Source of the DNA: Acidimicrobiia bacterium
Lineage (GTDB): Bacteria > Actinomycetota > Acidimicrobiia > Spongiisociales > UBA11373
Reading direction: 5' to 3'
DNA: 46,226 nucleotides
NCBI GenBank assembly: GCA_040902765.1
Contig: JBBDWO010000001.1
Span: 1 to 46,226, forward strand
Numbering within the stretch: position 1 is the stretch's first letter; each line of letters starts with the position of its first letter. The notes under the pieces were generated by a model. The model saw only the letters and a list, made by a program, of their open reading frames with translations, was not told the origin of the DNA and did not search any database. Position numbers and translations under genes: made by a program. This document shows positions 1,438 to 7,773 of the stretch, piece by piece.

Positions 1438-2763
1438 ATGAGGATCGTCATCGTCGGGGCCGGAGCCGTCGGCTCGTATCTCGCCGAACGCCTTGCCACC
1501 GAAGGCCAGGACGTGGTCGTCGTCGAGTCGAATCCCGCTCGGGCGGAGGAACTCCAGGCGTCGGTCGACTGCATGGTGGTCACCGCCAACGGTGCCAGCT
1601 CGCAGGCGCTCGAGGATGCCGGCTTGTCGGGCGCCGACCTGCTGATCGCGGTCACCTCGTCGGATGCGGTCAACATCCTCGCCTGCCAGGCAGCGGCGCG
1701 GATCGGCGTCCGCACGAGGGTTGCTCGGGTCGAGGATCCCACCCTGCGTGAGGACCTGGAATTGCACGGCGTCAGCGTGGTCATCGACCCGGTCGAGGCC
1801 CTCACCCGCGAGCTGCTGCTGCTCGCCCGGCGCGGTGGGGTCTCCGAGGTGGTCGAGTTCGCCGACGGGCAGATCGGCCTGTACGGCGGGTACGTCCAGC
1901 CGGGTGCCCCGCTCGACGGGAGCAGCCTGGCCGAGCTCCGCACCAGGGTGAAGGGGTGGGACTGGATCGTGGCCGCCCTCGTCCGCGACGACAAGACGAT
2001 CATCGCTCGGGGTGACTCGGCCTTGCAGTCCGGCGACCACGTGTTGGTGGTGACCAGCCAGGGCGCCGAGGAGGCGCTCACCCTCATGGGGGTGGAGGAG
2101 CATCGGGCGAAGAAGGTCTTCGTGCTCGGGGCCACCCGTCTGGCCACAATGACCGCAGAGGCGCTGGTGCAGGCGGGGGTCCACACGGTGCTCGTCGACA
2201 GCGAGGCGGAGCGGTTCGGGGACCTGGCCGCCAAGTACGACCGCCTGGTGGTGGTCAAGGGGGACCCGACCGACCCGGAGGTGCTGGCATCCGAGGGCAT
2301 CGCCAACGCCGACGTCGTCTTCGGGCTGTCGGGCTGGGACGAGGTGAACATCCTCGGCTGCATGGTGGCCAAGGCGCTCGGTGTGCACACGGTCGTCTCA
2401 CGATTCCACAACCTCGCCTACGTCGGTCTGCTCGCCGGGCACGGCATCGACGCCGGCGTCTCGACTCGACTCGCCGCCGCCAATGAGATCCTGCGGCTGG
2501 TGCGGCGTGGAACGATCCACTCGGTGATCACCTTTCAAGACACAGATGCCGAAGCCATCGAACTCCAGGTCGGACCGTCGAGCGACGCCGTGGGCAAGAT
2601 GCTGAGCGACGTCGGACTCCCGAAGGCGGCGATCATCGGGGGGATCGTGCGCGGTAAACGCGCCTTCATCCCGCACGGCGACACGGTGGTCGAAGCGGGC
2701 GACCGACTCATAGCCGTCGCCCTCCCCAAGGCGATCCCCGCCGTCGAGAGGCTGTTCGGGTGA
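1438..2763 (+). CDS. trkA: Trk K+ uptake regulatory subunit TrkA (two RCK domains)
   Basis: A 441-residue cytoplasmic protein that gates the TrkH channel by binding nucleotides. It has the duplicated TrkA architecture: a Rossmann TrkA-N domain with a GxGxxG motif (IVIVGAGAVGSYLA, residues 3-16), a TrkA-C domain, a second TrkA-N domain starting near residue 225 (KVFVLGATRLATMTAEAL), and a second TrkA-C ending in GDRLIAVALPKAIPAVERLFG. The second Rossmann has GATRLA in place of GxGxxG, so its nucleotide site may be altered. The length agrees with the roughly 450-460 residues of two-domain TrkA proteins. The ATG follows GAGG by 4 nt. trkH begins 16 nt after the stop, which indicates one operon. 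Confidence 0.95.
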   Translation: MRIVIVGAGAVGSYLAERLATEGQDVVVVESNPARAEELQASVDCMVVTANGASSQALEDAGLSGADLLIAVTSSDAVNILACQAAARIGVRTRVARVEDPTLREDLELHGVSVVIDPVEALTRELLLLARRGGVSEVVEFADGQIGLYGGYVQPGAPLDGSSLAELRTRVKGWDWIVAALVRDDKTIIARGDSALQSGDHVLVVTSQGAEEALTLMGVEEHRAKKVFVLGATRLATMTAEALVQAGVHTVLVDSEAERFGDLAAKYDRLVVVKGDPTDPEVLASEGIANADVVFGLSGWDEVNILGCMVAKALGVHTVVSRFHNLAYVGLLAGHGIDAGVSTRLAAANEILRLVRRGTIHSVITFQDTDAEAIELQVGPSSDAVGKMLSDVGLPKAAIIGGIVRGKRAFIPHGDTVVEAGDRLIAVALPKAIPAVERLFG

Positions 2764-2779: not shown

Positions 2780-4228
2780 ATGTCACTGCGGCGCCTCGTG
2801 TTCATCGTCGCCGCCGTCGTCGAGGGAACGGCCGCCGCCATGCTCACCGCTTCGGTCGTCGCCATCGTCTACCGGGAGTGGGACGAGGCGCTGTCGATCA
2901 CAGTGGGTGCCGTCGTGGTGCTGGTCCTCGCCGACCTGGTCCGGAGGGGCGCGGCGCGTACCGGGGAGCTCACCATGCGCGAGGGGTTCGCCGCCGTTGG
3001 GTTGTCCTGGTGTGCCATGGTGGCCGTGGGGACTATCCCGTTTCTCGTGACCGGCACCGTCGGCGGGTTCACCGAGATCTTCTTCGAGACCGCGTCGGGG
3101 TTCACCACGACCGGGGCTTCGGTGATTGCGACCCCCGAAGTTCTGTCGCGCTCGGTCCTGTGGTGGCGGGCCCTCACGCAATGGATTGGAGGCATGGGCA
3201 TCATCGTCCTGTCCATCGCCATCCTCCCGCTGCTCGGTGTCGGTGGCATGCAGTTGGCCAGGGCCGAGTATCCGGGAGGTCAGCCCGACCGCTTGACTCC
3301 TCGATTTAGGGAGACGGCGAAGCGCCTGTGGCTGGTTTACGCCGCGTTGACCGCGGCAGCGGCCGTGGCCTATGCCGTCGCCGGGATGGGAGTGTTCGAC
3401 GCGCTCACCCATTCTTTCACGACCTTGTCGACCGGTGGGTTCAGCACGAGCAGCTCGTCACTCGCCGGATTCAGCGTGTCGGTGCAGTGGGTGGCGATCG
3501 TGTTCATGACGATGAGTGGCGCGTCGTTCGCGCTTCACCTGCGGGCGCTGAAGCGGCCTACCGAGTACCTCCGAAGCGCCGAGCTCCGGCTGTACGGCAT
3601 GGTCACGGCGGCGGCGGCGGCGTTGGTCATCGTCGGCACCTGGGGTGGTGCGCCGGTCGACACCATCAGGAGCGGCCTCTTCAGCGTTGTGTCCCTGGTC
3701 ACCACGACCGGGTACGGCGTGGCCGACTGGAACCTGTGGAGCGGGGGTCTTCAGGTCCTCGTGGTGGGCCTCATGTTCGTGGGGGGAATGGCCGGGTCCA
3801 CGGCGGGGTCGATCAAGGTGTACCGACTGGGCATCCTCTATCAGAGTTCGCGGGCGGATATGCGGCGACTGATCCATCCTCGGGGCGTCTTCGTCACGCG
3901 GCTCGGCCATCAGCAGGTTCCCGACAGGGTCGCCGAGAGCGTCCAGTCGTTCTTCATCCTCTACATGTTCCTGTTCATGACCGGGACGTTGTTGTTCGCG
4001 GCCATCGAGTCTTTGGCAGGCGTGCAGGTGGACTTGGCGACGTCGGTGTCGGCAGTCGCCACTTCGATTGGGAACATCGGCCCGGGCCTTGCCGCGGTGG
4101 GGCCTACTGATACCTTCGCCAGCGTCCCGACCGCCGGCAAGTGGCTCCTCTCATTCCTGATGATCGTGGGGCGCCTCGAGATCTTCCCGATCGTGTTGCT
4201 GTTCACCAGGGAGATGTGGCGGCGATAG
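2780..4228 (+). CDS. trkH: Trk K+ uptake channel subunit TrkH
   Basis: A 482-residue polytopic membrane protein that forms the K+-translocating pore of the Trk system. Four M1-P-M2 repeats are visible through their pore loops: TASGFTTTGASV, TTLSTGGFSTSSS, SLVTTTGYGVADWN and TSIGNIGPGLAAVGP. Each contains the conserved glycine of the SKT family filter. The C-terminus, MIVGRLEIFPIVLLFTREMW, is typical. The order trkA-trkH in one operon gives channel and gating ring together. The stop codon is 2 nt before the ATG of the pyrophosphatase-like gene, so the next gene is very probably co-transcribed. Confidence 0.95.
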   Translation: MSLRRLVFIVAAVVEGTAAAMLTASVVAIVYREWDEALSITVGAVVVLVLADLVRRGAARTGELTMREGFAAVGLSWCAMVAVGTIPFLVTGTVGGFTEIFFETASGFTTTGASVIATPEVLSRSVLWWRALTQWIGGMGIIVLSIAILPLLGVGGMQLARAEYPGGQPDRLTPRFRETAKRLWLVYAALTAAAAVAYAVAGMGVFDALTHSFTTLSTGGFSTSSSSLAGFSVSVQWVAIVFMTMSGASFALHLRALKRPTEYLRSAELRLYGMVTAAAAALVIVGTWGGAPVDTIRSGLFSVVSLVTTTGYGVADWNLWSGGLQVLVVGLMFVGGMAGSTAGSIKVYRLGILYQSSRADMRRLIHPRGVFVTRLGHQQVPDRVAESVQSFFILYMFLFMTGTLLFAAIESLAGVQVDLATSVSAVATSIGNIGPGLAAVGPTDTFASVPTAGKWLLSFLMIVGRLEIFPIVLLFTREMWRR

Positions 4229-4230
4229 GG

Positions 4231-6291
4231 ATGGCCGATCTCGCCACCGCCGTGCCCTTCCTGTGGGTGCTGGTCGCCGTCGGCATCCTCGCCGTCGGTG
4301 CCGCGCTCGTCCACGCCGTTCGGCTGGGCACGGGAGCCGACCGGGACACGACGACACCTGACGCCGCGGTGCGTCACGGCGTCGCTCGAGTGGTCGGCCG
4401 ACAACGGGTGCTCGCGCTGGCGATCGGCGCCGCCGTGGTCGCGGCGCTGATCCTGCTCGCTGGCGGTACCGCCCCTTGGTGGTCCCTGGGTTCCTACCTG
4501 GCGGGAGCCGGGGCCGCGCTCGGTGTCGGCGGCGGTGTCGTCGCCGTGACCGCGCACAGTCCCCGCCGCACTGCGGACGCGGCCCGCGACCGCGGGTCGG
4601 TAGCGGCGATGGCGGTCGCGGCAGGGGGAGGTACGGGCGCCGCTCTGATCCTCGTTGGCGTCGCCTCCACCATGCTGGCCGGCGGCTACCTGATCGCTGA
4701 CGCCGCCCTGTCGCTGCCGGAGGTGTGGCGTCTGCTGGTGCCCGCAGGGCTCGGGGTGTCGACGGTGGCCATCGTCGCCCGAGTCGGCAGCGGCGTCTTC
4801 GCCAAGAGCACCGATGTGGCGTCCCACACGACGAGTCGGCTCGAGGCGAGAGGCGCCGACCGCTACGGGCGCAACCCGGTCACGATCGCCGATCTCGTGG
4901 GGGACTCGCTGGCGGGCACGAACGGCGCCGCCATCGATCTGCTCGACACCCTGTTCATATCGGTGGCGGCAACGACAGTGCTGGCTTGGGACCTCTCCGG
5001 AGGCCCGTCAGTCACGCTGTGGGCGGTGCTGCTGCCGCTGGTGGTCGCCGGCTCTGGGATCGTCGGGTCGTTCCTGGCGACGCTCGTCGTCCGCACTCGC
5101 GGGAGCCATCTGTCGGCGACGCTGCGACTCGGTCCGGCGGTATGTGGTGCCTACGTGCTCGTCGTTGGGTACGCCTACCTCCGATGGCCGCTGGTCGATA
5201 CGCCGGGAACGATCGACCCCTGGGGCGCCTTCGCCAGCACGGCGTGTGGCGTGGTAGTCGGCATCGGCATCGGCCACCTCTCGGAGCTGTTCACCAGCGA
5301 CCGCTGGCGGCAGGTGAAGAACCTCGCCCGTGAGGCAGACCGGGGGGCGGCTCCAGTAGTTCTCGCCGGTGTGGTGGACGGGCTGCGCACCTCCGTGATC
5401 CTGGTGGCGGTCCTCGGTGGCGGTGTGGCCGTCGCCTTCTGGGGTGGGGAAGCCATGGTGGAGGGTGGCGGGGCCTACGGGGTGGCTCTGGGCGCGGTGG
5501 CCGCGGCGGCGTCGCTGGGGGTGATCGCACGGGTCGCTGCCTTCGGGCCCGTGGCCGACACCGCACGCGGGATTGCTGACATGACCGGCATGCCGGTGGA
5601 GGCCCGCGAGGTGGCGTCCGCCCTGGACTCCCTAGGCAACGCCGTCGCCGGGATGGTGCGGGGGTTCTCCCTCGGCGCCGGAGGCTGGGCGGCGGTGGCG
5701 GCGATCCTGGCATTGCACCGGACGGCGGACATCGGCGCGGTCGACCTGTTCCGTCCGCTCGCCCTCGGGTCCCTGCTCGTCGGAGCCGCGGTCCCGATGG
5801 TGGTCGCCGCCTCGGCGATGCGTTCGGTGACCGCGACCGCCGCATCGATCGTGGACGAAGCCGGACGCCGGGTCGCCGGGCAGCGCGGTCGCCGGAAGAC
5901 CCGTACTCCGGTCGACGAGGTGTGGTGCGTCGACCTGGCGGCCGCCGCCGCCCACCGGGCGGTGGTGCTGCCGATCTCGCTGGCCGTGGTCCTGCCGATC
6001 GGGCTCGGTTTATTCGACGTGGCTGCGCTCGCCGCCCTCCTCGTCGGGGGCCTCGTGAGCGGGCTGTTGCTCGCCGCATTCTTGGCGTCATCGGGAGGAT
6101 CGTGGGACAACGCTCGCAAGCTCGTCGAGGCCGGCGCCTACGGAGGGCGCGGCTCCGACGCCGACCTGGCCACCAGCGTGGGAGACGCCGTCGGGGATCC
6201 GTTCAAGGACGCCGCGATGCCGGCGGTGCTGGTGGTGGTCAAGGGTTTGGCGATCGCGGCGCTCGCCTTCTTGCCCGCGTTCCTCGGGTGA
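4231..6291 (+). CDS. Divergent membrane pyrophosphatase (HppA) homologue with altered active-site motifs
   Basis: A 686-residue, multi-spanning membrane protein. The fold is clearly that of the membrane proton/sodium-pumping pyrophosphatases: FAKSTDV (residues 190-196), RNPVTIADLVGD (214-225), AFGPVADTARGIADMTGMP, DSLGNAVAGMVRGFSLG, SGGSWDNARKLVEAGAYGG and VGDAVGDPFKDAAMP all align with HppA motifs. Several residues conserved in the family as I know it are changed. The DVGADLVGK segment reads DVASHTTSR, so an Asp is His199 and the Lys is Arg203. NVGDNVGD reads LVGDSLAG, losing one Asp at Gly229, and GNTT becomes GNAV. The C-terminal catalytic aspartates and the DPFKD lysine are kept. I infer a paralogue with altered or lost PPi hydrolysis, perhaps a Trk-associated ion-coupling partner. 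The ATG at 4231 starts the first hydrophobic segment; an in-frame start at 4141 would overlap trkH by 88 nt. Confidence 0.82.
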   Translation: MADLATAVPFLWVLVAVGILAVGAALVHAVRLGTGADRDTTTPDAAVRHGVARVVGRQRVLALAIGAAVVAALILLAGGTAPWWSLGSYLAGAGAALGVGGGVVAVTAHSPRRTADAARDRGSVAAMAVAAGGGTGAALILVGVASTMLAGGYLIADAALSLPEVWRLLVPAGLGVSTVAIVARVGSGVFAKSTDVASHTTSRLEARGADRYGRNPVTIADLVGDSLAGTNGAAIDLLDTLFISVAATTVLAWDLSGGPSVTLWAVLLPLVVAGSGIVGSFLATLVVRTRGSHLSATLRLGPAVCGAYVLVVGYAYLRWPLVDTPGTIDPWGAFASTACGVVVGIGIGHLSELFTSDRWRQVKNLAREADRGAAPVVLAGVVDGLRTSVILVAVLGGGVAVAFWGGEAMVEGGGAYGVALGAVAAAASLGVIARVAAFGPVADTARGIADMTGMPVEAREVASALDSLGNAVAGMVRGFSLGAGGWAAVAAILALHRTADIGAVDLFRPLALGSLLVGAAVPMVVAASAMRSVTATAASIVDEAGRRVAGQRGRRKTRTPVDEVWCVDLAAAAAHRAVVLPISLAVVLPIGLGLFDVAALAALLVGGLVSGLLLAAFLASSGGSWDNARKLVEAGAYGGRGSDADLATSVGDAVGDPFKDAAMPAVLVVVKGLAIAALAFLPAFLG

Positions 6292-6317
6292 TCGAACACG
6301 AGCACCGAACGCAGCCG

Positions 6318-6323
6318 TAGGCT
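6318..6323 (+). promoter_or_regulatory. Putative -10 box (TAGGCT) giving a leaderless transcript
   Basis: TAGGCT is followed after 6 nt by the ATG at 6330, so transcription would start at or next to the start codon. This argues for the ATG rather than the in-frame GTG at 6324. Confidence 0.5.
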
Positions 6324-6329
6324 GTGGGC

Positions 6330-6548
6330 ATGGAGTTGTCGATCCTGGCCGGTCAGCAGGACGGAGGCTTCACGCTTCCTTCAGATCCCGGTGCCGCCGC
6401 GGTGTGGGGAATCACGCTGGCGGTCATCGTGGGTCTCTACCTGCTCGTGAAGAGGACACGCCGGCGCGCCGACGAGGCGTTCCGTGAGCGGATCGCTCGC
6501 CGCGACTCGCCGCGGGACCGGACCGAAGATCCGAGAGACGAGGGGTGA
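6330..6548 (+). CDS. Small single-pass membrane protein of unknown function
   Basis: A 72-residue protein not assigned to a family. A short N-terminal part rich in Gly and Asp is followed by one hydrophobic helix (WGITLAVIVGLYLLVK, about residues 27-42). The tail is strongly charged and Arg/Asp/Glu-rich (RRRADEAFRERIARRD), predicted to be cytoplasmic. It lies 38 nt after the pyrophosphatase-like gene, with its own TAGGCT box, and 25 nt before the histidine phosphatase. It may be a small regulatory or assembly subunit, but nothing in the sequence proves this. Confidence 0.65.
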   Translation: MELSILAGQQDGGFTLPSDPGAAAVWGITLAVIVGLYLLVKRTRRRADEAFRERIARRDSPRDRTEDPRDEG

Positions 6549-6573
6549 TCTTGGCCACCGCAGGAGGGCGTGG

Positions 6574-7773
6574 ATGAGGCGCGTCACCCTCATCCGCCAC
6601 GCCGAGACCGACGCCAACGCCGCCGGGGTGTGGCAGGGCCGGAGTTCCACGGCGCTGAGCGAGACCGGCCGTCTTCAAGCGAAACGTCTGCGCGAGGATT
6701 TGGCCCGGATCGAGCCGACCCGGGCCGTCGCCTCCGATCTGTCCCGGACCCTCGAGACCGCCGAGGTGGCCGGTCTGGAGGTGACTCCCGACCCGCGATG
6801 GCGCGAGATGGACATCGGTCGGTGGGAGGGCCTCACCCGCGACGAGGTCGCCCGCCGCTACCCCGAGGAGATGGACACGCTGCGTCGTGGCGGGGACGTG
6901 CGGATGGGCGGCGGCGAGACCTGGTCCGACCTCGCCGAGCGGGTCCGAGCGGTGTTCACCGACCTGGTCGACTCGATGCTCGACGGTGAGCACGCCGTGG
7001 TGATCACCCATGGCGGGGTGATCCACACCTTGGTCGCCGCCCTCGTCGGGACGCCGGTGGGCACCGGAGTGGCACCGATCGATCGGGTCCGCAACGCCTC
7101 GATGACCGATCTGCTGATCGACGAGCGCATCGTTCTGGACCGCTTCAACGCCGGCGGCGACTCCGACGTGGTGCCTGAGGAGCGCACCAGCGTCGTCCTC
7201 ATCAGGCACGGCGAGTCGGAAGCCAACCTCCGCGGCGAGTGGCACGGCCGTACCGACGGCCCGCTCTCCGAGCTGGGCCTCCGTCAGGCAGAAGGCCTCG
7301 TGTCCCGGGTACCGCCGGTGCACGGTGTCTACTCGTCGCCGCTGGCCCGTGCCCGGGGAACCGCCGGCCCGCTCGCTGCCTCCCTGGGCCTGGACATCGC
7401 AGCGCACCCGGGGCTCGCCGAGATGGACATCGGCGAATGGGAGGGCATGACCTACGAGGAGATCCTGGAGGTGTGCGCCGAGTTGATGGGAACCATCCGG
7501 CGTGACTTCGTCGACCTCCCGCGGGGGCACACCGGCGAGACCATGGCCGCCACCGCGGCACGCGGCCGGGCCGCCGTGGACGAGATCGCCCGCCGACATC
7601 AGGGACAGCGCGTAGCGGTGGTCACCCACGGCATGCTCATCAGGGCCCTGGTGGGCGACGTGCTGGGAGTCGGCTGGCCCGGTTCCGAGTCACTCGCCAT
7701 CCCCTCGAACGCGTCGGTGACCCACCTCCGGTTCGCCGCGAGGGGCCCGGTGCTCGTGGACTACAACGTATGA
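6574..7773 (+). CDS. Tandem histidine phosphatase (two phosphoglycerate mutase-like domains)
   Basis: A 399-residue protein with two complete histidine-phosphatase domains in a row. Domain 1 has the LIRHAETDANAAGVWQGR motif at residues 5-22, an REMDIGRWEG segment and the second histidine in VVITHGG. Domain 2 begins near residue 209 with LIRHGESEANLRGEWHGR, then AEMDIGEWEG and VVTHGM. Both keep the phospho-accepting RH and the distal H, so both could be active. Substrates of this superfamily range from phosphosugars to nucleotides and cannot be chosen here. A GGAGGG site 6 nt upstream fixes the ATG at 6574; an in-frame start at 6484 would lie inside the previous gene. The stop codon is followed by a heptamer array. 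Confidence 0.88.
   Translation: MRRVTLIRHAETDANAAGVWQGRSSTALSETGRLQAKRLREDLARIEPTRAVASDLSRTLETAEVAGLEVTPDPRWREMDIGRWEGLTRDEVARRYPEEMDTLRRGGDVRMGGGETWSDLAERVRAVFTDLVDSMLDGEHAVVITHGGVIHTLVAALVGTPVGTGVAPIDRVRNASMTDLLIDERIVLDRFNAGGDSDVVPEERTSVVLIRHGESEANLRGEWHGRTDGPLSELGLRQAEGLVSRVPPVHGVYSSPLARARGTAGPLAASLGLDIAAHPGLAEMDIGEWEGMTYEEILEVCAELMGTIRRDFVDLPRGHTGETMAATAARGRAAVDEIARRHQGQRVAVVTHGMLIRALVGDVLGVGWPGSESLAIPSNASVTHLRFAARGPVLVDYNV

Follow-up and report, generated by a model that had tools for sequence, protein, structure and literature searches.

Within the window, which is the whole stretch of 46,226 nucleotides analysed here, a predicted membrane pyrophosphatase (mPPase) gene lies between the Trk potassium-uptake genes and a histidine phosphatase gene:

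1438..2763, forward strand: trkA (TrkA_N/TrkA_C, NF007039 above cut-off), first gene of the ancestral trkA-trkH-hppA order
2780..4228, forward strand: trkH (TrkH, PF02386), ending 2 nt upstream of the start of the pseudo-mPPase gene
4231..6291, forward strand: putative degenerate membrane pyrophosphatase (pseudo-mPPase), 686 amino acids with 16 predicted transmembrane (TM) helices
6574..7773, forward strand: two-domain histidine phosphatase (His_Phos_1, two stretches), by synteny the conserved downstream neighbour of hppA

The frame at 4231-6291 (+) is uninterrupted for 686 codons from an ATG 2 nt past the trkH stop. Its product matches the H_PPase profile PF03030 over its full length (residues 45-678 to profile positions 29-643 of 645), scoring 370 bits (E 3.6e-110) against a gathering score of 29.7, and falls under every cut-off of the NCBIfam mPPase models (sodium-translocating pyrophosphatase equivalogs; best 384 vs 546). 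An AlphaFold2 model of the protein had a pTM of 0.84 and a mean pLDDT of 77.8, and its pLDDT was lowest in a few loops, among them the active-site loop 206-213. When this model was compared with the PDB, all 36 matches with E <= 0.001 were mPPases, with TM-scores of 0.82-0.91. By profile match and predicted structure, the window protein is a member of the mPPase superfamily with the 16-TM fold. The sequence-only reading had likewise described an HppA-fold gene 2 nt after trkH, in agreement with the intact frame and the PF03030 match. Between this gene and the histidine phosphatase gene there is a small open reading frame (about 6330-6550, +) of about 70 amino acids, comprising one hydrophobic helix and a charged tail; nothing clearly corresponding to it was seen in the relatives inspected.

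An ancestral locus with a divergent gene

The gene order LCP / trkA-trkH-hppA-hisphos-GT-topA-MFS-tmk-holB is conserved, by synteny, in the Acidimicrobiia family of the window genome, relatives in which include RBG_16_68_21, UBA11373 and NC_groundwater_1810; all genomes compared are draft assemblies. In most of these relatives the hppA gene at the conserved locus is canonical, and it combines A12.46 with E6.53, making it a K+-dependent pump of the Na+-PPase type under published subfamily rules (Ala 12.46, Glu 6.53; PMC9408878, PMC6882861). No other mPPase copy of the K+-dependent type was found in the window genome. Because the window gene occupies the exact ancestral place and is the sole copy of its type in the genome, it is, judged from synteny and sequence, the positional, vertically inherited, in-place orthologue of canonical hppA and not an extra gene.

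The divergence of this gene is large. Canonical hppA proteins of the family are 78-93% identical among themselves, whereas the window protein shares only 36-39% identity, over nearly its full length, with canonical syntenic hppA proteins (for example, those of G008 and G009) that have the same locus and neighbours. Flanking genes of the window genome are mostly 49-76% identical to those of relatives (43-48% for the histidine phosphatase). In trees, the window gene sits on a branch of 6-8 substitutions per site, where the median is near 0.2. Elsewhere in the family, the sole mPPase of two members (G012 and G013, loci L013 and L015) is of another, K+-independent type, about 46% identical to the second pump of the window genome described below, and a K+-dependent copy was not found in either. 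At two further loci (L116 and L117), the hisphos-GT-topA genes are kept and no mPPase was found upstream.

Catalytic residues lost and kept

We compared the window protein with 65 canonical type-A orthologues, which are invariant at the catalytic sites compared. The positions that matter most lie as follows, all called by alignment:

4825..4827, forward strand: His199, replacing invariant D5.65 (Vr D257)
4915..4917, forward strand: Gly229, replacing invariant D6.43 (Vr D287 / Tm D236; PMC5150537)
4945..4947, forward strand: Asp239, replacing the gate Glu E6.53 (Tm E246)
5659..5661, forward strand: Arg477, replacing K12.50 (Vr K541), the resting-state ion-pair partner of D6.43 (PMC5150537)
6106..6108, forward strand: Asp626, the retained D15.61 in GGSWDNARK
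6181..6210, forward strand: retained GDAVGDPFKD (D16.31, D16.35, K16.38, D16.39)

Twelve acidic residues are listed for the hydrolytic centre of mPPases (PMC6882861). Eight of these are kept in the window protein, one is conservatively changed (E5.76D) and three are lost (D5.65H, D5.77R and D6.43G). The broken motifs reported from the sequence alone (DVGADLVGK to DVASHTTSR, NVGDNVGD to LVGDSLAG and GNTT to GNAV) are all present in the gene. The accompanying estimate that half of the acidic site remains was right about partial loss but too low, as about two thirds (8/12) remain. Other changes relative to the 65 canonical sequences are K12.50R, K5.69R, E6.53D, S6.54T, K15.64R and N16.46L, and the residues kept are R5.50, K5.58, D5.61, D6.35, D6.39, D6.50, D11.57, N12.43, D15.61, D16.31, D16.35, K16.38, D16.39 and K16.50. 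At the sites of the K+-dependent subfamily, A12.46 is kept (Ala473), with Val at A/G12.49 and Asp at E6.53.

The same pattern emerges from comparison with pumps of known structure. The K+-dependent Na+-PPase of Thermotoga maritima (4AV3/5LZQ/8B21), which has the K+-site Ala12.46 and gate Glu 6.53 in common with the canonical syntenic relatives, has the 16-TM fold of the window protein (TM-score up to 0.91) at about 24% identity. Its D6.50, K16.50 and R5.50 are kept in the window protein, which differs by D6.43G, D5.65H, D5.77R, K12.50R, E6.53D and Leu 16.46. Relative to the H+-PPase of Vigna radiata (4A01), the window protein has the same fold and most of the residues lining the Mg2+/PPi site, but shows the same catalytic losses and is without the gate Glu at 6.57. 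The canonical syntenic proteins of G008 and G009, unlike the window protein, keep every catalytic residue.

Both D6.43 and K12.50 are present in 65 of the 65 canonical type-A sequences. In solved mPPases, K12.50 holds D6.43 at rest and substrate binding releases it, D6.43 and D16.39 then jointly activating the nucleophilic water; an mPPase with D16.39 alone is described as inactive (PMC5150537; PMC5336470). Of this water-activating pair, the window protein keeps D16.39 and has Gly229 in place of D6.43, so that loss of hydrolysis would be expected. Because D6.43, K12.50, D5.65 and D5.77 are all lost, PPi hydrolysis by the window protein appears very unlikely, with residual activity conceivable given that most acidic residues remain, and we infer that it would not carry out PPi-driven pumping. 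An alternative is that the protein is still an active pump, or acts on another phosphate substrate, through rearranged chemistry. The retention of the eight acidic residues, K5.58, K16.38, D16.39 and the gate pair D6.50/K16.50 is what such a pump would have going for it. With one of the two water-activating residues gone, together with D5.65 and D5.77 (PMC5150537, PMC6882861), we consider continued activity very improbable, and the absence of a nucleophile-activating Asp makes it doubtful that the protein could split any phosphoanhydride by the known mechanism.

A second pump and recurrent degeneration

A second canonical hppA, whose existence in the genome had been raised as a check on the sequence-only reading, was indeed found (G000:C2:145521-147632). 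It scores 797 bits, and its GNTTKA motif identifies the K+-independent type; it is only 30-34% identical to the window protein. Close homologues of this second pump (78-89%) occur in 14 of 137 genomes of the order, the window genome included. Degenerate copies with open frames were found in five genomes (the window genome, G118, G112, G010 and G011), all of which are among the 14 carriers, and none was seen among non-carriers. The association between degeneration and carriage has a Fisher p of 3e-4 with about 48 examined non-carriers and of 9e-6 with 110, in both cases ignoring relatedness. Seven of the 14 carriers show no visible degeneration, six having complete canonical copies and one a copy split over contig ends; of the remainder, G113 shows no gene of this kind and the G123 copy is frameshifted. 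Because seven carriers keep both pumps without degeneration, the second pump is, on these genome counts, permissive for degeneration and not sufficient to force it. The G123 copy (L063, G123:C43, about 4811-6623) encodes a K+-dependent-type mPPase with canonical motifs in a second-pump genome, with a deletion and frameshift around DAYGPIADNAGG, and represents either a pseudogene or an assembly error.

The confinement of degenerate copies to second-pump genomes would also be expected if the window protein formed a heterodimer with the canonical second pump and regulated it as a pseudo-subunit, and a dimeric, asymmetric mechanism is established for mPPases (PMC6882861). The low identity between the two proteins speaks against such pairing, as does TM13, at the dimer interface, in which the window protein keeps only 38% of the canonical invariant residues. 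We therefore regard a pseudo-subunit as improbable.

The other degenerate copies differ in how far they have departed from canonical pumps. In G010 and G011, two species of another genus in the same family, the gene at this locus has degenerated further than in the window genome: the G011 copy lacks the catalytic loop that joins TM5 and TM6, its protein still scoring 74 bits against PF03030, and the G010 gene is assembled in its 3' part only. G112 and G118 belong to another family of the order. The G112 copy carries D6.43G and K12.50R and is up to 38% identical to canonical proteins; the G118 copy carries D6.43A and K12.50R, is 57% identical to canonical proteins and adjoins the histidine phosphatase gene. 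A pattern search for Gly, Ala or Val at D6.43 across 395 genomes of the class and 396 of the phylum revealed no recognizable mPPases beyond those of the window genome, G112 and G118. The single extra match in the phylum, G643, was judged by its matched codons only and not taken as an mPPase, and a divergent copy in G015 proved to be a canonical mPPase, though of a different type, and was not counted as a degenerate relative.

Degeneration of this kind is recurrent within one order. The trees do not settle a shared origin, nor the number of independent ones, because the branches are excessively long and no grouping of degenerate copies tried is rejected by AU tests. D6.43 and K12.50 are both changed in all three alignable copies, which a simple count does not make significant (P 0.17 for at least 2 of 28 sites). 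Given this value, and since K-to-R replacement is widespread in these genes, partly a composition effect, the joint change at aligned positions is suggestive only.

Constraint on the fold and possible roles

We simulated neutral evolution in 300 runs, starting from a canonical relative and proceeding down to 37% identity. All 17 hydrophobic cores are kept in the window protein, compared with a simulated mean of 3.3 and a maximum of 8, and polar residues make up 6.2% of the cores compared with 25% in the simulations. Simulated genes acquired a mean of 4.2 stops, with none in 2.3% of runs; the window gene has zero, and its codon-position GC pattern is normal throughout. The retained cores, open frame, codon pattern and AlphaFold2 model together suggest that selection maintained the membrane fold through most of the divergence. 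A scan of the genome contigs with the window protein found no close relative (no congeneric sequence). The initial view that the gene was selectively altered and that decay was less likely fits these results, in which the frame is intact and neutral decay is unlikely by simulation.

We conclude that the window gene probably encodes a pseudoenzyme of the mPPase type that has been kept as a folded membrane protein. A competing explanation is slow decay of a redundant, functionless gene on its way to loss. Decay could account for the length of the branches (6-10 substitutions per site, where the median is about 0.2), for the dispensability of the gene (the locus copy is absent in L116, L117 and G113 and frameshifted in G123) and for the fact that the copies of the congeners G010 and G011 are only 48% identical. 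It sits poorly with TM cores, codon pattern and open frame kept far above the neutral expectation, with frames intact in several genera, and with a dN/dS of 0.34 between the G010 and G011 copies (dN 0.44, dS 1.28, 153 codons; dS near saturation). On balance, decay seems unlikely.

A third possibility, close to the new Trk-tied role first proposed for this gene, is that the protein acts as a K+-sensing or ion-coupling subunit of TrkAH. The 2-nt spacing to trkH would permit translational coupling, and the ancestral pump is of a K+-dependent type that adjoins trkAH across much of the order. The trkAH-hppA order recurs in relatives, mostly with canonical pumps, so that co-occurrence with trkAH does not single out the altered protein. 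No trk genes were found in the 11-kb stretch that carries the G112 copy. In G011, trkAH is missing from the ancestral locus (L066, G011:C75, 5888-9075); an nhaA-type Na+/H+ antiporter gene on the opposite strand occupies its place, and the degenerate mPPase gene is retained there together with the hisphos, GT and topA genes. Because adjacency predates degeneration and the G011 gene persists without trkAH, a Trk-specific role is not supported, and we consider a Trk subunit very improbable; a link limited to the window species alone is conceivable. Our literature search returned nothing relevant on mPPases together with Trk.

Returning to the pseudoenzyme, a plausible course would start from a K+-dependent, Na+-PPase-type mPPase inherited vertically at the ancestral locus. 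As the lineage also carries a K+-independent H+-PPase-type pump, catalysis at the trk locus may have become dispensable and been lost, with the 16-helix membrane protein kept. The remaining eight acidic residues, K5.58 and K16.38 may still bind a phosphate/Mg2+ ligand, and binding could produce a conformational change at the largely kept ionic gate (R5.50, D6.50, D6.53 and K16.50). The window protein might thus be a membrane protein that responds to PPi or to ions without carrying out hydrolysis. More speculatively, K+-dependent mPPases in second-pump lineages could have been converted repeatedly to non-hydrolytic proteins, losing the D6.43-K12.50 'mousetrap' pair each time and yielding natural uncoupled mPPases that bind PPi unsplit and serve as PPi-gated ion channels or PPi sensors, a scenario we consider rather unlikely.

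No mPPase pseudoenzyme was described in the literature we searched. The window case resembles pseudoenzymes in general (for example, pseudopeptidases; PMC11266112) in that the fold is kept, catalytic residues are lost and an active paralogue is present in the cell. The copies form a graded natural series, from G118 (close to canonical apart from D6.43A/K12.50R and a handful of other changes) through the window gene and G112 to G010 and G011, with the catalytic loop gone. Such a series could be used to ask which parts of the pump are required for folding, ligand binding and ion gating, and could help to probe a debated proposal, namely that the ion is moved by PPi binding itself, ahead of hydrolysis. 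A further caution from these copies is that a PF03030 match, even beside ion-transport genes, need not mean a pump. In the two most degenerate copies (L118 and L111), the C-terminal stretch WENVRRLIETGAYGG..SRAHRAVVAAD is nearly identical despite divergence elsewhere in the protein, a hint that some local function has been kept.
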